64,000 nt of DNA, taken from the NCBI GenBank assembly GCA_900315635.1, contig OMZV01000001.1:62001-126000 (forward strand), read 5' to 3'. Below the pieces are notes generated by a model. The model did not search any database, was not told the origin of the DNA, and saw only the letters and a list, made by a program, of their open reading frames with translations. The DNA is from an uncultured Prevotella sp. (lineage in GTDB: Bacteria; Bacteroidota; Bacteroidia; Bacteroidales; Bacteroidaceae). This document shows positions 35,452 through 55,480 of this stretch, piece after piece. Positions within the stretch are counted from its first letter, which is position 1. Each line of letters begins with the position of its first letter. A program made the position numbers and the translations under genes.

Positions 35452-36042
35452 ATGAAAAAATTAGTTTTGATTATCTTTGCCTTTGCATTGCCATTGTTCT
35501 TGCATGCTCAAAAGGAAGTTGGCACAACAATAATCTATCCTCGTTTAGGACTAAACTGGTCGAAGTTTACCAATGATGGAATCGGAGGCTCGCAGGAAGG
35601 TGAATATTATGACTCGAAATATCGTACGGGATTCACGGGCGGAGTTGAAGTTCAGCATCAGTTCGGTAATGTTATTGCAGGAAGCATTGGCGCTCTCTAC
35701 AGTCGGCAGGGCACTGACTATGATGACATGCCGGATGCAAAGCTTTCCCTAAAGACTGACAATATCCTTGTTCCTGTTCTGCTAGTTGCCACTACACGCA
35801 TTGGACTAAACTTTAAACTTGGTGTTCAACCGGAATTCATGGTCCACTCCAATGCTGATTATTTCCTAAACAAAGTAAACCTCTCTATTCCTGTCGGACT
35901 GTCTTACGAATGGAATCACATCGCATTGGACGTCAGGTATAACATTGGTGTAACCAGTATTTATAAAGACAGCAATTCTTACGACAAGACATCGCACGGA
36001 AGTACATTCCTTGTAACGTTAGGTTATGGCTTCGACCTCTAA
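35452..36042 (+). CDS. Outer-membrane beta-barrel protein (OMP_b-brl_2/porin-like)
   Basis: The 196-residue protein has a signal peptide (MKKLVLIIFAFALPLFLHAQ) and a small beta-barrel: YPRLGLNWSKF, GFTGGVEVQHQFG, IGALYSRQGTDY, LNFKLGVQPEFMVHS, SIPVGLSYEWNHIALDVRYN and the terminal FLVTLGYGFDL ending in an aromatic-rich strand. It is clearly paralogous to the gene at 46149-46724, with the same length and matching C-terminal motifs. The two copies bracket the accessory region. The biological role is unknown. Confidence 0.85.
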   Translation: MKKLVLIIFAFALPLFLHAQKEVGTTIIYPRLGLNWSKFTNDGIGGSQEGEYYDSKYRTGFTGGVEVQHQFGNVIAGSIGALYSRQGTDYDDMPDAKLSLKTDNILVPVLLVATTRIGLNFKLGVQPEFMVHSNADYFLNKVNLSIPVGLSYEWNHIALDVRYNIGVTSIYKDSNSYDKTSHGSTFLVTLGYGFDL

Positions 36043-36080
36043 CCTCTATAGAAATCATTCCTTTATAAACTTCGCAAATC

Positions 36081-36218
36081 ATGAAACAAACAAAGAACCT
36101 GAGAATTTTCTTTTTAACTATTGCTGTTCTTGTTCTAGCATTTACTTCTTGTAGTAATGACGACGAACATGGACTGCAAAAGGAGTTGATTGGTCCTGTA
36201 TGCAGAAGCCATGAATAA
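36081..36218 (+). pseudogene. N-terminal remnant of a lipoprotein gene
   Basis: A 45-codon frame encodes a good lipoprotein signal (RIFFLTIAVLVLAFTSCSND with the lipobox Cys) followed by only about 20 residues before a stop. Full Bacteroidales surface lipoproteins continue much longer, so this looks like a 5' fragment. It lies immediately upstream of another, unrelated fragment, which suggests a deletion joining two gene pieces near 36195-36245. A genuine 45-residue lipoprotein cannot be excluded. Confidence 0.6.
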
Positions 36219-36244
36219 AACTTATGCTTCGATGGATACTTTGA

Positions 36245-36436
36245 ATTTCATGGGAGGATGCTTATTATACAGGATACAGCCGTGCCATCAGTCGTGCACG
36301 CAATTTCGGTGTTACTGTCTCGTTGCAACTTGGCAAGATGAAAGCGAAGGTCAAGCAGACCGACCGAACCATACAGAATGACGATATTGTCGGTGGTTCA
36401 GCCCCAGTGGCTCAGCAGAATAAACTGGGAGAATAA
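36245..36436 (+). pseudogene. C-terminal remnant of an outer-membrane receptor
   Basis: The frame is open for 63 codons without a start codon at its left end. The last strand and tail are typical of Bacteroidales TonB-dependent or OMP_b-brl_3 receptors: SRARNFGVTVSLQLGKMKAK then VKQTDRTIQNDDIVGGSAP and a stop. The intact receptor at 43933 has a comparable end (SISISWRFNSGRKYKKVERR). The piece is therefore a leftover of a larger gene, decayed by deletion. Confidence 0.65.
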
Positions 36437-36551
36437 ATCATTTGGACATAGATTCTCTTATCTATTTGTTGTAAAGAAATTTACGAAATTCCCAAGACAG
36501 GATCATTTGGAAATTCTGTCTTGTAAGTATCTGATAACCAGAGCTTCCGAG

Positions 36552-36639
36552 AAAGGTACCTTTTTGCGTTCTAATAAGTACCGTTTTACGTTGTAATAAG
36601 TACCGTTTTAGAGCGTAAAAAGGTACCTTTTACATTGCA
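36552..36639. repeat. 22-bp tandem repeat array, locus 1 (four units)
   Basis: Four contiguous units of exactly 22 bp start at 36552, 36574, 36596 and 36618. The central ones read ATAAGTACCGTTTTACGTTG-TA and a close variant; the outer ones have the palindromic core AAAGGTACCTTTT. There are no unique spacers, so it is not CRISPR. The same unit recurs at 55371-55480. It sits 72 nt upstream of the Wadjet-type operon promoter. Confidence 0.85.
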
Positions 36640-36710
36640 TTTTGGCGTCAGTTGCAATGCATGTAAATATATTTGTTGTACAATTATCCACGAGAATTCT
36701 AACTATTCAG

Positions 36711-36741
36711 TTGTCATTCTCAATTATTTTCCTTAACTTTG
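36711..36741 (+). promoter_or_regulatory. Promoter of the Wadjet-type operon
   Basis: TTG (36711-36713), a 20-nt spacer and TAACTTTG (36734-36741) match the consensus well. The jetA-like ATG is 30 nt further on. The defence operon therefore has its own constitutive-type promoter. Confidence 0.72.
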
Positions 36742-36771
36742 ACGGCAGAAATCAATTCAAAGGCTAAATAA

Positions 36772-37983
36772 ATGGAGACATTCCGGAACCTAAAAGAACT
36801 TATACGCTGGCTTAGTCGGGGACAGGCACTACTTGCTGATATGTTCAGCAAGCGGAAGACTGTGGCAATACGCTATGACGATGCTGTAGAAGTTCTTGAT
36901 GGCAATGAGGCTTACTTGCAGTTCCTTATCAACCATGGAGTTATTATCCGGAATGCCGACTCACTGGAGCTAGATGATACTTACCAAAAATTCTTCGAGA
37001 ATGTTCTTGCCATCAATGAGGATATTAATGTAGCATCGGTTCAGCAATATGTCAAAACACTCCATCTGAATATAGACTCATGGCTAGCCACTGACTCAGA
37101 GAAGCGTAAGGCACAGTTCATGCGTGAAATCCGTCATACGTTTCGGAATATCGACCTTGTAACACGAAAGAATGTCATCGACCTGAAGCGAAATATTGAT
37201 ACAACTTATAAGCAGGAACCAGACTTCAAGATAAAGAAGCTCCGTCTTAAAGATTTCGATGAAAAGCGCAAGCAAGTGGTAGCACTCATCAGTGAGACCG
37301 AGAAGATAATCGACTCACAGACAATCTTCTTTAAGACGGCAATGGATGTCGACTTGATGATGACCATTGCTGATGTTCGTACCGGTCTTCGTGAGACTAC
37401 CCACGGACTGATTTCAATCGGAGCACAAATCATCGACTATCTTAACCGAATAGATTATCAGAGCCGTATCGTCCGTAAGATACGCCAGCTCAAGTATATG
37501 CGCGACCAGCAGATGTTGACCGAAAGCACGGATATAGAAACACAGCTAGCAAGAATCAACGATGTTTGGATGGAAGCTCGTCCTAAGTACCGGACATTTG
37601 TTTCACTTGACTTCTTACGCAATGACGATTCGGCAATTGACATACTTGAAAAACTTCGCCATCGGTTATCGAAGAAAACCATAATACGTTCAAAACTTGC
37701 TGGTCCTATCGATGAAAGTTATTTGCACCCAACGAAAGATGAACGGCGAGTATTCAATCATCAGGAACTCATCAATGGATTCCTTGCCCAAAGTGTTGAT
37801 TTGTTTACTTATATATGGAACTATCCGTTTAAGACTGAAACACAGCAAGAGGAACGTCTGGTTCTCTTCCTTCAACTAGCTTCACAATATGACCGTGATG
37901 AGCGTTTCGAGCAGAGTACTGCATCAATAGCTGTCGGCGATCACACAATTATCTATCCATTAATCTACCCCTCAAAATCTTAG
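36772..37983 (+). CDS. Wadjet-type kleisin subunit (JetA/MksF-like)
   Basis: The 403-residue protein is the first gene of a four-gene SMC operon. It is mostly helical with no membrane segment. Its size and position match the kleisin (JetA/MksF) that bridges the SMC heads and recruits the KITE dimer. The N-terminus suggests a winged-helix (DAVEVLDGNEAYLQFLINHG). The middle is long helices (FDEKRKQVVALISETEKIID and YLNRIDYQSRIVRKIRQLKY). The C-terminus, SIAVGDHTIIYPLIYPSK, would be the second head-binding segment. The direct evidence is gene order and neighbours; the exact Pfam family (DUF3375, DUF5716 or MksF) needs a profile search. It is 32 nt before the next gene. Confidence 0.78.
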   Translation: METFRNLKELIRWLSRGQALLADMFSKRKTVAIRYDDAVEVLDGNEAYLQFLINHGVIIRNADSLELDDTYQKFFENVLAINEDINVASVQQYVKTLHLNIDSWLATDSEKRKAQFMREIRHTFRNIDLVTRKNVIDLKRNIDTTYKQEPDFKIKKLRLKDFDEKRKQVVALISETEKIIDSQTIFFKTAMDVDLMMTIADVRTGLRETTHGLISIGAQIIDYLNRIDYQSRIVRKIRQLKYMRDQQMLTESTDIETQLARINDVWMEARPKYRTFVSLDFLRNDDSAIDILEKLRHRLSKKTIIRSKLAGPIDESYLHPTKDERRVFNHQELINGFLAQSVDLFTYIWNYPFKTETQQEERLVLFLQLASQYDRDERFEQSTASIAVGDHTIIYPLIYPSKS

Positions 37984-38015
37984 CAACTCATATACTCAAA
38001 ATCTTACAAACTTAA

Positions 38016-38567
38016 ATGAAATACACTAGCGAAATATTCCAAAGACTATCCAACGGCAAGTTTATATCGGCAAACTCTATTGACCCAATGAATCGTTCAC
38101 TCTATCGAGACATAGAGGAGAACCAGCAGGACTATACCGATTATTTCTCGCAGATTGATTTCCTTCTCTGTGCAGGCGATGGCTACTTCTACTTTTCAAG
38201 GAAGGAAGCAAAGATAAATGTTGAGAATAAACTTCAAGGACTTTTGCAATGGATTGACTATCTTGATTTTCTAAAGTCTTATGATACCAGCTTTGATGTC
38301 GGTACTCAATTCAATATTGCTCAGATGGAAGTACAACTTCAGAGTAACCTTGAATTGAAGGATAAACTTCAAAACTTGTTCCCAGAAAAATCATCCAACC
38401 GTGACAAACTTGAAACATTAGTAGGAAAACTTGTTGACATGGGATTTGCCGAGCAGGTGAGTGAGATAGAAGGAATGTATCAGGTAACATCGGCATTCCA
38501 CTATATTGAGAATATTATCGATTGTGTGAACATTAGCGAGGAGGTTAGCGATGAGATACCTGAATAA
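38016..38567 (+). CDS. Wadjet-type KITE subunit (JetB/MksE-like)
   Basis: The 183-residue protein fits MksE/JetB (DUF4194-like), a tandem winged-helix partner of the kleisin. It opens with EIFQRLSNGKFISANS, contains YFSQIDFLLCAGDGYFYFSR, a helical LEGLLQ-type middle and LVGKLVDMGFAEQVSEIEGM followed by the strand YQVTSAFHYIENII. It ends with a 17-nt overlap into the SMC ATPase gene, indicating coupled translation. Assignment rests on size, fold pattern and operon context. Confidence 0.8.
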   Translation: MKYTSEIFQRLSNGKFISANSIDPMNRSLYRDIEENQQDYTDYFSQIDFLLCAGDGYFYFSRKEAKINVENKLQGLLQWIDYLDFLKSYDTSFDVGTQFNIAQMEVQLQSNLELKDKLQNLFPEKSSNRDKLETLVGKLVDMGFAEQVSEIEGMYQVTSAFHYIENIIDCVNISEEVSDEIPE

Positions 38568-41500
38568 GATTGTCTTTATAAACAGTGCCAACATAAAGTA
38601 TGCCGAGATAAATCTCGACGGCAATGTGCATTTCATAGGAACACAGGGAGTGGGCAAGTCAACCATCCTCCGTGCCATCCTTTTCTTCTATAACGCCAAC
38701 AAACAGAAGCTAGGTATCCGAACGCAACAAGGACAAAAACCTTTCGATGAGTTTTATTTGCCTAATCCGAACTCTTATATCCTTTATGAGGTCGTCCGTG
38801 AGAATGGAAAGTTCTTTATCATTGCCTTCCGTTCGCAAGGTCGTACAGCCTTCCGCTTTGTCGATTGCCCATACGAACGTCATTTCTTCATTGATGCCGA
38901 TGGTAATGCCGAATATGAATGGGGAAAGATAAGCCAGAATATAGGTGTAAGGGTATTTAAGAGCAATATCATCAGAACCCAACAGCAATATCTTGATATT
39001 CTCTATGGCAATAGCCAGTCGGTCAGTCGTGAGTTCCGCCGGTTCTCCATAATGGAAAGTGCGAAGTATCAGAATGTACCACGGACAATACAGAACATCT
39101 TCCTCAATCAGAGTCTTGAGAGTCAGGTCATAAAAGATATTATCATTGACTCAATGGATTTTGCCGACCGCAACAATATTGACTTGAACCAGATTCGTAC
39201 AGAAGTCAAAGACTTCCGTATGCAGTATGACGATATTAGCAAGTGGTATCGTAAGGAGAAGAACGGAACTGTCAAAGTGCGCAATGAAGCTGACCGTGTA
39301 CTTAATACTTACAGCATTTATGAGGCTTGCCGTAAGATGATTGCCGAATTTACTGGACAAACCATCTTCGCCTTGGACCGAGACCGTAATGAACTTCCAA
39401 AGCTTAACGATAAGATTGCAGAGACAGAACTTCTTCTCAGCAATAAACGTCGGGCTGCAGCCGAGGAATCACGCAAGTATAACAAACAACGTGATGACCT
39501 GAACCGTCAGGATGGAGCTCTGAAACAGATACTTGATGAAACCCGTAAGAAACAACAACATTATGCTGAGATTGGGATAGACAATATCATCAACAAGATA
39601 GAGCACGAGAATGAGTTCAACATCCGTCGTGATACTCTCAATGGTCAGATAGAGCAGCTCACAAGCAAGAACAAGGATGTGAAGGCAAAGTATGACCAAC
39701 TCAAACAAAAGGAGACTGATAGCCGCCGCCAACGTGAATCAGATTGTCAGCGAAGATTGTCTGAATTGAAAGTCAGTGTGGCTAATGAAGTCAGTGCTCT
39801 GCAAGGCAAATATGTTACTGATACAGCACAAATGGAGTCTGAGTATCAGAGCCATTTGCAAACCATTCAGGAAAAGCGCACCGCAATACAGGAAGAAATA
39901 TCTAACATTAAGGTTAGTAGAGAAAAAATCAAGACTTCTAATCCTTATGCACAACAGATGGATGAGAACCGCAAGCGCATCGACTCTCTCCGTGCCGATA
40001 ATCTTCGATTGCAGAAAGATTCATCGCAAAAGCAACGACAGATAGACCAGATTACCCACGAGGCTGAACTTGCACGTAAGGAACTAGAGGTAAGAGCCGA
40101 TTCTGATATTCGTGAGATTGACCATAATATCGCTTCGGTTAATGAAAATATCAGTCGTCTTGACCAATTACTCGAACGACAGAAAGGTTCATTCATTGAA
40201 TGGCTTGGCGATAATGTCAAAGGTTGGGAAAAGAACATCGGGAAGATTGCTGATGAAGAATCAGTTCTTTATAATACTTCTCTCAATCCTCGAAAGGGCA
40301 GCAATTCGGATTCTTTCTTTGGCATTCATGTTGATACCGACAGCATTGACCGTGAGGTTCGCACGCCATCAGATATAAAGAATGAAAAGTCAGAACTCGA
40401 AGGTAAAGTTTCTGACTTGAAAGCCAATATTGTTAAACGGCGTAAGCAACTAGAGGCAGATATTGAGCAAATGGAGAAGAAGCCAAGTTCTCAGCTCAAG
40501 CAACTCCGTGCCGACAAACGGAATATTGATGCCGAAATTCAAAGCATTCCGCCACGGATAAAAGCCGCTGAGGATGACCTTGCCCAGAAGTCGGAGCACC
40601 TTGCTAAGCATAGACAACAGAAGTTGGATGAGAATCTCAAGAGCCTCAATGATGCGACTGAGCGTTTGCAAAAGGCAGAGCAGGAACTCAAGTTGGAGAA
40701 TGAAAGTCACGATAAGCAGAAGGATAAACTGCAAAAAGCATTCAAGCATAACAAGAAAGAAATTCAATCAAGATTCTCTGCCCAAAAGTCTACCATTGAC
40801 AATGAACTCAAAGTCATTGCCTCTGAATCCGATAAACGGATTAAAGAACTCGATGCGATGATGGATCGAGAGTTGCACGGTCTTGGAGTAGATACAAGTC
40901 AGCTAGCTAGTCTTCGGGAACAATTGGAGAAGATTGAGACGGAGCTTCGTTTCATCAACCAGCACCGCAACGACTATATTTATTGGCAAAAAGATAAGGC
41001 TGAACTCTTCGACCATGAGCAAGAGAATAAGGACAAGCGCAAGGCATTGAAGGCAAAACTCGATGACCTCGATGACAAGTTTGCTGTGAGAAAACACAAA
41101 CTCGATGATGCCATACGAATGATTAGTGATGAATGTCGTCGTTTAAGTGAACAACAGAAGCAAATGCAATCAGCCATTCATGATACTGAGGGCTTTATGG
41201 CATCAGAATCATGGCCAAGGGAATTTGCTGAGAACAATATCATTGAGACGGTTAAGGCATTGTCGGAGATTCTCTCGGATTTGAAGAACAGGGTTATGAC
41301 TCTCAGCCGTAAGAGGGATTCTTTCATTAATGCTGTAAAACAGTTCAAAGCGAATTTCACACCACAGAACACTTTCCACTTTGCCACTGAATTCAATACA
41401 GAAAGTGATTATGCCAACTTTGCCGCAAACCTCTCCGAGTTTATCGGCAATGATATGATTGAAAGTTATCGTCAGCGAGTCAGTGACCATTACGCCCGTA

Positions 41501-42213
41501 TTCTTCGGACTATTGGCATAGAGACAGGGAACCTTATGAGTAATCGCAGTCAGGTTCAGGCGACAGTAAATGAGATTAATCGTGACTTCCGTGAGAACAA
41601 CTTTGTTGGAGTGGTCAAAGAAATTGAACTCCGCATTTCGGATAGCAGCGATCGACTGGTTCAACACCTGCTGGTCATCAAGAAGTTCAATGACGAGCAT
41701 GGCGACAGCATTGGCGAGATGGACTTGTTTACTGATGAGAGCCAGCGCACACAGAATAACCATCGTGCCGTGGAATTGTTGACTATGCTTATGGATGAAC
41801 TTGATGCCGACCAGAAGCGTGACCATGTAACTCTAGCCGATGTATTTAAACTAGAGTTCCGTGTCCACGAGAATGATAATGATACTGGTTGGGTGGAGCG
41901 ATTGTCGAATGTTGGCAGTGATGGAACTGATATTCTGGTAAAGGCAATGGTGAACATCATGCTCATCAATGTCTTTAAGAAGAAGGTGAGCAAACGCTTT
42001 GGCGACTTCCGCCTGCACTGCATGATGGACGAGATAGGTAAACTTCATCCTGACAACGTAGCAGGAATACTAGACTTTGCCAACAAGCGTAACATCTATC
42101 TTGTAAACAGCAGTCCAACGACATATAATGCCACGGCATACAAATACACCTACTCACTGAGCAAGGATAGTAATAACGTAACGGTTGTTAAGACTCTCAT
42201 GACAATACTCTGA
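38551..42213 (+). CDS. Wadjet-type SMC ATPase (JetC/MksB-like)
   Basis: The 1220-residue SMC-like ATPase has Walker A GTQGVGKST at residues 30-38 and Walker B LHCMMDEIG with Asp1160-Glu1161. Two long coiled-coil arms run from about 250 to 950 (many charged heptads, such as KNKDVKAKYDQLKQKETDSR), with a hinge/elbow region around residue 560-620. The ABC signature position reads SNVGSDGTDI (1119-1128) rather than a standard SGGQ-type loop. JetC/MksB subunits extrude DNA loops and test plasmid size before cleavage by the Toprim subunit. It is 6 nt before the fourth gene. Confidence 0.9.
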   Translation: MRYLNKIVFINSANIKYAEINLDGNVHFIGTQGVGKSTILRAILFFYNANKQKLGIRTQQGQKPFDEFYLPNPNSYILYEVVRENGKFFIIAFRSQGRTAFRFVDCPYERHFFIDADGNAEYEWGKISQNIGVRVFKSNIIRTQQQYLDILYGNSQSVSREFRRFSIMESAKYQNVPRTIQNIFLNQSLESQVIKDIIIDSMDFADRNNIDLNQIRTEVKDFRMQYDDISKWYRKEKNGTVKVRNEADRVLNTYSIYEACRKMIAEFTGQTIFALDRDRNELPKLNDKIAETELLLSNKRRAAAEESRKYNKQRDDLNRQDGALKQILDETRKKQQHYAEIGIDNIINKIEHENEFNIRRDTLNGQIEQLTSKNKDVKAKYDQLKQKETDSRRQRESDCQRRLSELKVSVANEVSALQGKYVTDTAQMESEYQSHLQTIQEKRTAIQEEISNIKVSREKIKTSNPYAQQMDENRKRIDSLRADNLRLQKDSSQKQRQIDQITHEAELARKELEVRADSDIREIDHNIASVNENISRLDQLLERQKGSFIEWLGDNVKGWEKNIGKIADEESVLYNTSLNPRKGSNSDSFFGIHVDTDSIDREVRTPSDIKNEKSELEGKVSDLKANIVKRRKQLEADIEQMEKKPSSQLKQLRADKRNIDAEIQSIPPRIKAAEDDLAQKSEHLAKHRQQKLDENLKSLNDATERLQKAEQELKLENESHDKQKDKLQKAFKHNKKEIQSRFSAQKSTIDNELKVIASESDKRIKELDAMMDRELHGLGVDTSQLASLREQLEKIETELRFINQHRNDYIYWQKDKAELFDHEQENKDKRKALKAKLDDLDDKFAVRKHKLDDAIRMISDECRRLSEQQKQMQSAIHDTEGFMASESWPREFAENNIIETVKALSEILSDLKNRVMTLSRKRDSFINAVKQFKANFTPQNTFHFATEFNTESDYANFAANLSEFIGNDMIESYRQRVSDHYARILRTIGIETGNLMSNRSQVQATVNEINRDFRENNFVGVVKEIELRISDSSDRLVQHLLVIKKFNDEHGDSIGEMDLFTDESQRTQNNHRAVELLTMLMDELDADQKRDHVTLADVFKLEFRVHENDNDTGWVERLSNVGSDGTDILVKAMVNIMLINVFKKKVSKRFGDFRLHCMMDEIGKLHPDNVAGILDFANKRNIYLVNSSPTTYNATAYKYTYSLSKDSNNVTVVKTLMTIL

Positions 42214-42219
42214 TAAAAG

Positions 42220-43098
42220 ATGAAGATAGGTAACGGTCTTTTGAAAAACTTTATTCGCTTGTCGGATGGTGAATCTGTGCCAGCAAGTGCATTGAAATCA
42301 TTCCGTGATTTACAGCGTTTATGTGATGACGGAATCCTTTCGACGATTGTACATGGTAGCAGGCGTAGCTATAAATGTGCTAATCGAGGGATGTTTCTTG
42401 ACTTTCTTGCAAGCGAATACAACATACATAATCTTGAAGCCATTCAAGAGATGTTAACCTCAAACGAGGCTAACCGTGCCAAGCAAGTGGAACTTACCGG
42501 TGACAGCAAGTTCGTTAAGCAGAGGGTAATGAAAGGCTTTCTCGTAAATAGCTATGAGCCAATCGACGCCACACTCAACGACACACCGTTTATCATTAAT
42601 CCTCCAGACGGCACTTATGTTTTCGTCTATGATTATGAAGCGTTTACTATTCCTTCAGATGTGCTAATAATAGGAATAGAAAACAGCGAGAACTTCAGAC
42701 GGATTAGCCAACAGAAATGGCTGTTCGATGAGATGTATCCCAATCGGCAAATTCTGTTTGTTTCCCGTTATCCTCAGAATGAAAGCCGGGACTTGGTGCG
42801 TTGGCTTCAATCAATAGGCAATGAGTATGTCCACTTTGGTGACCTCGACCTTGCTGGTATCCGCATCTTTATCACTGAGTTCTATCGCTATTTGGGAGAA
42901 CGCTCATCGTTCCTGATTCCTCCTGATTATGAAGAACGTATCAAGAATGGAAGTCGTGAACGCTATGATGTCCAACTGACAACGACAAAGAATATGATAA
43001 TCAATGACCCACGCTTAAGAGCCCTTGCTGCCTGCATACATAAATATCATCGTGGTTATGACCAGGAAGGCTATATAAGAACACGACAACAATTCTAA
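42220..43098 (+). CDS. Wadjet-type Toprim nuclease (JetD/MksG-like)
   Basis: The 292-residue protein has an N-terminal winged-helix-like part (about 1-110) and a Toprim domain. Toprim marks are Glu154 in LIIGIENSENF, the DxD pair in YVHFGDLDLAGIRIF (208-210), and a late acidic motif YDQEGYI (280-286). These match the topoisomerase VI A-like cleavage subunit JetD/MksG, which cuts closed circular plasmids. It is shorter than the roughly 390-residue type I JetD, so the N-terminal arm is reduced. It ends 16 nt before the regulator gene. Confidence 0.88.
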   Translation: MKIGNGLLKNFIRLSDGESVPASALKSFRDLQRLCDDGILSTIVHGSRRSYKCANRGMFLDFLASEYNIHNLEAIQEMLTSNEANRAKQVELTGDSKFVKQRVMKGFLVNSYEPIDATLNDTPFIINPPDGTYVFVYDYEAFTIPSDVLIIGIENSENFRRISQQKWLFDEMYPNRQILFVSRYPQNESRDLVRWLQSIGNEYVHFGDLDLAGIRIFITEFYRYLGERSSFLIPPDYEERIKNGSRERYDVQLTTTKNMIINDPRLRALAACIHKYHRGYDQEGYIRTRQQF

Positions 43099-43114: not shown

Positions 43115-43849
43115 ATGAAACCATACCATTCCATATTACTTTTCGCATTGATTGTTTGCAGTTCGATTATTGCAAGTTTGCATAGTTATAGTTGTGCCGA
43201 GAACTACATCGTTGCCGACATGAATCAGGCGTTGGAGAAAACTCTTGAGGAAAAGGAAGGACGATGGATAACGCCTGATACCATAACCGATTATCGGAGT
43301 CATTTGCAGATAGCTGCTTTGAGGCGGACCTCGGTAGTAAGTTATGCTGTTGATGACAAGAACTTTGGACTATGCAGTAAACGAATAAAATTGAAAGGTG
43401 TCGGATTCCAGAGTTATGCTAATTGCTCAATGGCATCGGTTTTTGCTATGTCCGACCAACGGCTTTCGGCATTCCTCACTTTGCTGGCAATGCTCTGGGC
43501 TGCAATATCTTTCAGGTATTTCAGACGTAGTAAAGACAATGTTTGTCAAGAGGGCATAACTGTCTTGGGAAGATTGAAGTTTGATGAATCATCCGACATG
43601 TTCCTCACGATGGACAACAAAGAAGTTAGCCTTACTCCGATGCAACGCCAACTGCTTACCATGTTTTTCCAAGCAGATAATCACCAACTAAGTAAGCAGA
43701 TAATTGCTGATGCCCTTTGGCCTAAGAAACCGGACGCTTCCGATACCCTTTATACTCTTATCCGTCGAATCCGTCCGATACTTGCTGATAATGGCTTAAA
43801 AATCACTTCGGGCAGAGGAAAAGATTATCAGTTGACCGATATTAGCTAA
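43115..43849 (+). CDS. Membrane-anchored winged-helix transcription regulator
   Basis: The 244-residue protein has two membrane helices (about 5-22 and 116-135) around a periplasmic domain of about 90 residues containing several Cys (27, 87, 104). A cytoplasmic winged-helix domain of the OmpR/PhoB kind follows at 145-242: LTPMQRQLLTMFFQ, KQIIADALWPKKPDASDTLY, TLIRRIRPILADNGLKITSG and GKDYQL. The order is a mirror image of ToxR, in which the DNA-binding domain is N-terminal. The next gene encodes a receptor whose promoter region begins with three 11-bp-spaced boxes right after this stop codon; that is probably its target. Confidence 0.83.
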   Translation: MKPYHSILLFALIVCSSIIASLHSYSCAENYIVADMNQALEKTLEEKEGRWITPDTITDYRSHLQIAALRRTSVVSYAVDDKNFGLCSKRIKLKGVGFQSYANCSMASVFAMSDQRLSAFLTLLAMLWAAISFRYFRRSKDNVCQEGITVLGRLKFDESSDMFLTMDNKEVSLTPMQRQLLTMFFQADNHQLSKQIIADALWPKKPDASDTLYTLIRRIRPILADNGLKITSGRGKDYQLTDIS

Positions 43850-46148: not shown

Positions 46149-46724
46149 ATGAAAAAGTTATTATTAATGGCAGCAGTTATGCTCGCTTCAGTAGGTGCTT
46201 ACGCACAGCATGCAGTTGGTTCGTTCAACCTTCAGCCGAAGGTAGGTATTAACATTGCAAACATTACTGATGCTGATGATTCAGATCCACGTGTAGGCTT
46301 TGTTGGTGGTGTTGAAGGTGAGTATCAGGCAACCGACATCTTCTCTGTTACTGCAGGTGTCCTCTATTCAATGCAGGGTGCAAAGGAAACTTACGAAGGT
46401 GTAAAGACTACAGCAAAGTTGGATTACATCAACATTCCAATCCTTGCGAATGTTTATGTTGTTAAGGGCTTGGCTGTAAAATTAGGTGTTCAGCCTGCAT
46501 TCAATGTCAACAGTGAGTTCAAGGTAAAGCATGGCGGTCAGAGCATAGAGGGCGATGTTGATGCAAAATCTTTCGACTTCTCTATTCCAGTCGGTATTTC
46601 ATACGAGTATAAGAATGTTCAACTTGATGCTCGCTACAACTGGGGACTTACCAAGGTCTTCGATGACTCTGACTCTAAGAACAGTGTCTTCCAGATTACA
46701 CTTGGTTACAAGTTCGACCTGTAA
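46149..46724 (+). CDS. Outer-membrane beta-barrel protein (OMP_b-brl_2/porin-like)
   Basis: The 191-residue protein has a signal peptide (MKKLLLMAAVMLASVGAYAQ) and barrel strands FNLQPKVGINIANI, VGFVGGVEGEYQATDIFSVT, AGVLYSMQGAKETYEG, AVKLGVQPAFNVNSEF, SIPVGISYEYKNVQLDARYN and the final FQITLGYKFDL. It is paralogous to the gene at 35452. Strong promoter, well-kept reading frame and a perfect terminator suggest an abundant protein. The function is unknown. Confidence 0.88.
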   Translation: MKKLLLMAAVMLASVGAYAQHAVGSFNLQPKVGINIANITDADDSDPRVGFVGGVEGEYQATDIFSVTAGVLYSMQGAKETYEGVKTTAKLDYINIPILANVYVVKGLAVKLGVQPAFNVNSEFKVKHGGQSIEGDVDAKSFDFSIPVGISYEYKNVQLDARYNWGLTKVFDDSDSKNSVFQITLGYKFDL

Positions 46725-55370: not shown

Positions 55371-55480
55371 AAAGGGTACATATTACGATGCAATATGTAC
55401 CCTTTTACATTGTAATATGTACCCTTTTACAACGCAAGAAGGTACCTTTTGCAAGCCCAAAAGATACCTTCTTACTGTTA
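55371..55480. repeat. 22-bp tandem repeat array, locus 2 (about five units)
   Basis: Units begin at 55371, 55393, 55415, 55437 and 55460. Units 2 and 3 read ATATGTACCCTTTTACATTG-TA and a close variant, 22 bp each. Unit 1 is the same sequence in inverted orientation; units 4 and 5 are degenerate (23 and 21 bp) with GGTACC or GATACC cores. The consensus matches the array at 36552-36639, 19 kb away. Confidence 0.85.

Follow-up and report, generated by a model that had tools for sequence, protein, structure and literature searches.

MukBEF and Smc-ScpAB both combine an ATPase of the structural maintenance of chromosomes (SMC) type with partner subunits and are not known to include a Toprim gene, and the MksBEF of Pseudomonas aeruginosa is an MksBEF without a nuclease. 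Type I Wadjet (JetABCD; represented here by Corynebacterium glutamicum MksBEFG, P. aeruginosa PA14 and Escherichia coli GF4-3) adds a Toprim gene in the order kleisin-KITE-SMC-Toprim, and its JetD/MksG is a demonstrated nuclease (PMC10123090, PMC10586767). Here, we describe an operon with the same order of subunits, mksF-mksE-mksB-mksG, in a stretch of 64,000 nucleotides (the window) from an uncultured Prevotella sp. (GenBank assembly GCA_900315635.1, contig OMZV01000001.1, positions 62,001 to 126,000, forward strand). We put at roughly 0.7 the probability that its products form a self-contained MksBEFG/Wadjet-like complex of SMC motor and nuclease that cuts small circular DNA. The operon is a diverged, widely exchanged relative of Wadjet that one standard defence-gene library scarcely recognizes.

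The four open reading frames (ORFs) lie on the same strand with intact frames (36772-43098; Table 1). A preliminary description made from the sequence alone had reported four tightly packed genes at these positions and of these lengths, with the motifs GTQGVGKST, IENSENF and GDLDLAG, and all of this was borne out. The mksF and mksE genes are separated by 32 bases and mksB and mksG by 6, while mksE and mksB overlap by 17 bases, an overlap found in 42 of 80 relatives, with a 4-base overlap in 18 more. The genome itself, a 2.75-Mb draft in 57 contigs, yielded one MksB match and one MksE match.

Table 1. Features of the operon (positions counted from the first letter of the window; aa, amino acids)
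Feature	Position	Strand	Basis
Promoter-like site, Bacteroidota type, TTG-N20-TAACTTTG	36711..36741	+	ends 31 bases 5' of the mksF start codon
mksF, presumed kleisin subunit, JetA-like by position, 403 aa	36772..37983	+	place, size, co-inheritance
mksE, KITE-like subunit, JetB-like, 183 aa	38016..38567	+	PF21980; profile match to type I JetB
mksB, SMC-type ATPase, JetC-like, 1220 aa	38551..42213	+	PF12128 (DUF3584); ATPase motifs
mksG, Toprim nuclease, JetD/MksG-like, 292 aa	42220..43098	+	sub-threshold DUF7281 and JetD_C; profile comparisons
MksB Walker A GTQGVGKST, residues 30-38	38638..38664	+	
MksB ABC signature NVGSDGTD, residues 1120-1127	41908..41931	+	
MksB Walker B LHCMMDE, residues 1155-1161	42013..42033	+	
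MksG E154 of IENSENF, presumed metal ligand	42679..42681	+	E in 81/82 rows; aligns with type I JetD glutamate
MksG D208-L-D210 of GDLDLAG, presumed metal ligands	42841..42849	+	D208 and D210 each in 81/82 rows; align with type I JetD DLDA
MksG Q282-E283, counterpart of type I JetD EQE motif	43063..43068	+	each in 80/82 rows; aligned with JetD

Against Pfam, MksB matched PF12128 (DUF3584) nearly end to end (residues 18-1193, E value = 7.5e-67), and Walker A, signature and Walker B were all present in the 85 of 85 MksBs longer than 1150 aa. The preliminary description had named RecN, SbcC and chromosomal MukB as identities of the ATPase that would speak against it; RecN, SbcC and canonical SMC were rejected on Pfam and NCBIfam scans, and neither MukB_N nor MukE was matched at E 1 (Pfam). 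MksE matched PF21980 (MksE, E value = 2.7e-41) and aligned with type I JetB in a profile-profile comparison (hhalign, E value = 1.6e-5, probability 79%). The MksG of the window stayed below threshold for both PF23947 (DUF7281, 23.6 bits, cut-off 27) and JetD_C (15.7 bits, cut-off 22); among the members of the MksG alignment, DUF7281 was matched at E ≤0.1 by 25 of 25 (best 7.5e-13) and JetD_C by 10 of 25. DUF7281 was silent everywhere as a genome-search query, the own genome and controls included, and is uninformative in that use. In profile comparisons, the Toprim domain of MksG could be aligned with that of type I JetD such that IEN, DLD and QE fell at matching positions (E value = 7.2e-5, probability 63%), and MksG aligned over almost its full length with the MksG of Vibrio and Enterobacter plasmids (E value = 1.3e-8, probability 96%). 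The residue counts in Table 1 refer to 82 MksG rows (76 loci, the window twice, L003 to L005 and the remnant L007). Of the subunits that the MksBEFG/Wadjet superfamily, in the broad sense, comprises, the operon has an SMC-type ATPase in MksB, a KITE subunit in the adjoining MksE and a Toprim nuclease in MksG, the last from the DUF7281 matches of its members and the alignment with the JetD active site; the kleisin is presumed to be MksF, a conserved partner encoded at the expected place.

We then looked at how the four genes are kept together. A scan of named genomes gave 439 candidate stretches and, from these, 265 MksB relatives, the best 80 of which were kept. Across these 80 loci, MksB and MksE were found in all 80, and MksF and MksG in 76 each. 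Three of the four loci lacking an MksF match begin at a contig edge, and in the fourth (L034) the roughly 1 kb available upstream of mksE gave no match; two of the four lacking MksG stop at a contig edge (L056 and L074), and the other two (L048 and L053) are without MksG. In one further locus (L047), mksG is split across two ORFs. The ratio of nonsynonymous to synonymous substitution rates (dN/dS) was 0 to 0.24 for every gene in 8 pairs of near-relative loci wherever dS was unsaturated, with mksF at 0.012-0.10 in 7 of the 8 pairs (for the pair L069/L070, the ratios of mksF, mksE and mksB were not computable). The genes for the motor, the KITE subunit and the Toprim nuclease are therefore co-inherited and under purifying selection.

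The operon also showed signs of horizontal spread. A locus labeled Alistipes (L065) and one labeled Phocaeicola (L087) are 78% identical in DNA over 6,265 bases, an identity that begins 27 bases 5' of mksF and breaks off no more than about 10 bases from where mksG ends. Closer pairs have more flank in common (7.8 kb for L083/L087 and 8.8 kb for L009/L011). An MksB tree of 103 rows intermingles bacterial families, and the window's MksB falls in a group of 20 (support 100) with the labels Prevotella, Prevotellaceae, Muribaculaceae, Salinivirgaceae and Bacteroides, labels that may err because most records are metagenome bins. Neighbour genes vary by locus, with no true neighbour family common to more than 4 loci. 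With the four genes alone shared in this comparison across families, and with families intermingled in the tree, the operon appears to travel as a cassette.

Furthermore, the distribution is patchy. MksB was found in 24 of 393 genomes of the order, and an MksG-family protein in 49 of 398 genomes of the genus (about 1 in 8; 38 of 176 among good genomes), a count that includes the own genome and the L007 remnant and whose lower-scoring members may belong to sister systems. Among 60 genomes searched, the own included, 7 had MksB matches; besides the own genome, these were four genomes that belong to other families of the order, plus two congeners. These two, out of 35 congeners, hold only scraps in the form of degraded copies (L006 and L007). 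L007 (262-1614) is the remnant of a deletion, in which small parts of mksF and mksB are joined to a complete mksG, itself running on into a NUDIX-like frame. A comparison with empty sites after the nuo genes gave nothing, since the window's downstream genes stood beside nuoN in none of 14 congeneric stretches (one of only 565 bases); in L198, two of these downstream genes are present some 7 kb from nuoN.

How does the operon compare with the described types? The preliminary description called it Wadjet-type; the MksBEFG-type architecture stood, and of this identity we have high confidence, but assignment to a described Wadjet type did not, as the comparison it had proposed with types I to III found no strong matches to the JetA-JetD models of any one type. 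In PADLOC 2.0.0, with matches judged by bits and E rather than by the library's own cut-offs, the operon's proteins gave 22.5 bits for JetB1, 27.1 bits over 57 residues for JetC1 and 25.4 bits for JetD1, whereas a true type I JetD from another genome scored 449.5 bits. No JetA model was matched, and MksF had only a chance-level PADLOC match (E value = 0.24). One JetC1 model was matched by 23 of 24 MksBs at E ≤0.001 (best 2.5e-7); genome searches with JetC1 and JetC2 returned mostly short or coiled-coil matches and served solely for finding reference loci. Membership in types I to III is thus not supported, every match being weak. Lamassu was rejected as well (LmuB gave 28.8 bits on MksB, and the other three proteins matched no Lamassu model), as was Smc-ScpAB (SMC_prok_B, TIGR02168, 20.7 bits on the coiled-coil part of MksB, cut-off 567.35), and an NCBIfam scan of the four proteins gave nothing near a cut-off. 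The operon is outside the PADLOC Wadjet types and belongs to a class defined by DUF3584, MksE and DUF7281.

Type I Wadjet shares with the window operon its gene order, alignable Toprim active-site residues and alignable KITE proteins. Unlike the window operon, it has a JetA that cannot be aligned with MksF and a JetD of 380-403 aa (five loci), so that MksG, at 292 aa, is about 90-110 residues shorter, much as the preliminary description had estimated (about 100). The best family matches also differ (DUF4194 and DUF3322/JetD_C for type I, PF21980 and DUF7281 here), and conservation profiles suggest that the SMC here has longer arms and that its conserved hinge is shorter. Plasmids of Vibrio breoganii and Enterobacter hormaechei carry systems with the same three Pfam families, DUF3584, MksE and DUF7281 (the Vibrio copy by family scan, the Enterobacter copy placed by hidden Markov model and alignment), but in the order B-E-F-G and with F proteins that cannot be aligned with MksF. 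The Vibrio genes lie on a 341-kb plasmid (DUF3584 460 bits, MksE 35 bits, DUF7281 81 bits); the same gene set on the Enterobacter IncC plasmid sits beside Tn7-like transposition genes, with its B gene interrupted by an insertion sequence element. The class is rich in Bacteroidetes, in line with the earlier suggestion of a less studied subtype typical of them, but it is not confined to Bacteroidota. In the literature searched, no title or abstract start named this class, which is weak evidence of absence given that bioRxiv and most subscription papers lay outside the search. Type I systems occur in the phylum too, alongside at least two more SMC-type classes of four genes without a PADLOC Jet match (L150, 3.7-9.8 kb, and L156, 5.5-11.6 kb; L157, 6.8-12.0 kb); L157 has an 887-aa SMC and the order B-G-F-E, and the fourth gene of L150 matched nothing. 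Another locus (L158, 5706-11213) has JetA-JetB-JetC alignable with type I and no JetD behind.

We propose the following mechanism by analogy with type I Wadjet. The presumed kleisin MksF and the KITE subunit MksE would close MksB dimers, which would reel in DNA using ATP; on a small closed circle the motor would run out of DNA and stall, and the stall would switch on the Toprim nuclease MksG, whose N-terminal domain may be DNA-binding, to make a double-strand cut. Likely targets in the host would be plasmids and the excised circles of integrative elements. What is observed directly in support is the gene set with its ATPase and Toprim motifs, the co-inheritance of the genes under purifying selection, signs of horizontal spread and a patchy distribution. 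That the proteins form a complex, extrude loops, sense the size of a circle and cut it is carried over from the type I work (PMC10586767, PMC10123090), and by that analogy restriction of circular DNA is probable. At high protein concentration, C. glutamicum MksG is reported to cut DNA in the absence of the motor, but the JetD of two other systems requires JetABC and ATP (PMC10123090), so the control step may differ between systems.

Several results weigh against a circle-cutting complex of this kind. The 403-aa MksF, in which the preliminary description had seen no obvious DUF3375 start, matched nothing in Pfam or NCBIfam, and an alignment of 21 members gave no family match consistently common to them. 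Profile comparisons detected no similarity between MksF and type I JetA (E value = 0.1), nor between MksF and the Vibrio/Enterobacter F protein (E value = 0.2); because its profiles align with neither, MksF is presumed to be the kleisin by position, size and co-inheritance. The profile alignment of MksB with JetC covered 138 columns of the coiled-coil part at low identity and was not used. Sequence searches of the PDB with all subunits gave no meaningful match to any solved structure, those to apolipoprotein, p85 and ribosomal S18 being taken as coiled-coil or chance matches. In addition, the operon occurs on a 157-kb Persicobacter plasmid, typed as non-mobilizable, where only a few genes separate it from mobC and a relaxase gene; here, a plasmid bears a presumed anti-plasmid system. 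Finally, intact MksFEB without MksG exists, as set out below. Two other relatives also come from records labeled as plasmids: one has ribosomal-protein and amino-acid genes and looks chromosomal, though recorded as circular, and the other, an unannotated record, is a plasmid by its label.

The choice of target bears on an alternative in which the operon defends against phage or excised integrative elements rather than against plasmids as such. The same machinery would cut any small closed circle, and two relatives' operons carry an extra gene between mksE and mksB, for a YhcG PDDEXK nuclease in one (L004, 461-1501) and for a Schlafen/AlbA_2 protein in the other (L079, 6383-8017). We regard this alternative as unlikely in view of the described type I systems, which restrict plasmids (PMC10586767, PMC10123090).

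Next, we examined relatives without the nuclease. In the genus of genome G586, which is very likely Phocaeicola, 33 of 61 genomes matched MksB, and an MksB class 65-100% identical to the G586 protein was full length in 21 of those genomes. Twenty loci of this class (L276-L295) were compared, 18 of them with enough downstream DNA (L278 and L287 end too early for MksG to be judged): 17 of the 18 had no MksG match, and one (L294) had MksG. Walker A and Walker B were intact in all 19 MksBs of the class examined, L294 included, and the strict signature pattern was present in 18 of the 19. The chromosomal position is conserved in part, in that at least 6 of the 20 loci have upstream genes in common, which were not seen in the rest (in this count, the row of L280 was lost to an overlapping antisense ORF, and L281 was partly masked by one). 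MksG was also missing from loci of Parabacteroides distasonis (L209) and Bacteroides fragilis S82 (L048) and from L223 and L226. In all of these nuclease-free loci, MksF, MksE and MksB are of the same family as in the window. On a tree of 121 rows (93 with MksG, 22 without and 6 not judged), presence and absence of MksG required at least 5 changes, 4 of them forced by well-supported branches, and a single loss was therefore rejected. Because such intact MksG-less relatives exist, the motor can be kept for a purpose other than cutting.

One such purpose could be chromosome organization. The best match to canonical Smc (TIGR02168) in the own genome reached 33.8 bits against a cut-off of 567, and at E 1e-20 none was found in 60 genomes (the own and 59 relatives), compared with 11 of 14 control genomes positive; no more than 9 candidates were scored for any genome in this search, and 18 of the 60 fell short of the mark for completeness or purity. 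In a Hi-C study, no known condensin is reported for its two Bacteroidetes species (PMC10197239). We tentatively suggest, as a possibility at well under even odds, that MksFEB has two uses in Bacteroidales: together with MksG it would be a mobile defence that destroys circular DNA, and on its own, for example in Phocaeicola, a resident condensin of the chromosome. A stronger version, in which the window's own operon is mainly a chromosome-organizing condensin of a host lacking Smc-ScpAB, with MksG helping in untangling or repair, would draw on the same Smc searches and Hi-C report, on the 17 of 18 testable loci of one genus that keep MksFEB without MksG and on the upstream genes common to at least 6 of 20. 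We find it doubtful, however: most genomes of the window's genus have no MksG-family match, MksB occurs in 2 of 35 congeners and there only as scraps, the armed form is spread over many families with little regard to kinship, and the lack of Smc-ScpAB was judged by Smc alone. The armed operon is too patchy to be a general condensin.

The sequence around the operon bears on whether this copy is expressed. The preliminary description had given the operon its own promoter, and a promoter-like site does lie upstream of mksF (Table 1); the pattern TTG-N19-21-TANNTTTG occurred at 15 sites in the window, whereas 60 first-order Markov sequences searched with the same spacing of 19-21 had 1.95 on average and 5 at most, and 8 of the 15 sites lay at most 120 bases upstream of an ORF of at least 150 aa. 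Without its TTG partner, TANNTTTG was found 51 times in the window against 39.7 expected, which is not clearly above chance. That the copy is inactive or silent is very improbable, since against the degraded congeneric copies L006 and L007 and the apparent decayed gene pieces directly upstream stand four intact frames, the motifs and the promoter-like site. Those pieces (36043-36650) were judged by eye and consist of a lipoprotein-like start and an outer-membrane-protein-like tail; the palindromic AAGGTACCTTTT repeats among them recur at 55437-55470 (7 matches with at most 1 mismatch, 0.24 expected). Two outer-membrane barrel paralogues, 36% identical (35452-36042 and 46149-46724), bracket the operon and two downstream genes. 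Directly 3' of mksG, the gene at 43115-43849 encodes a Trans_reg_C winged-helix protein that apparently has a membrane segment at its N terminus, and is outside the neighbour families common to at least 4 loci.

If the operon works as a circle-cutting MksBEFG system, a survey based on PADLOC would miss or under-call a class of anti-plasmid systems in Bacteroidales. Such an operon could curb the traffic of plasmids and integrative elements among gut and rumen bacteria, and it could hamper their genetic transformation. Moreover, if the two uses of MksFEB suggested above are real, the loss or gain of one nuclease gene would toggle the same machine between immunity and chromosome housekeeping, and the MksG-less relatives would be a concrete candidate for the condensin of some Bacteroidetes.

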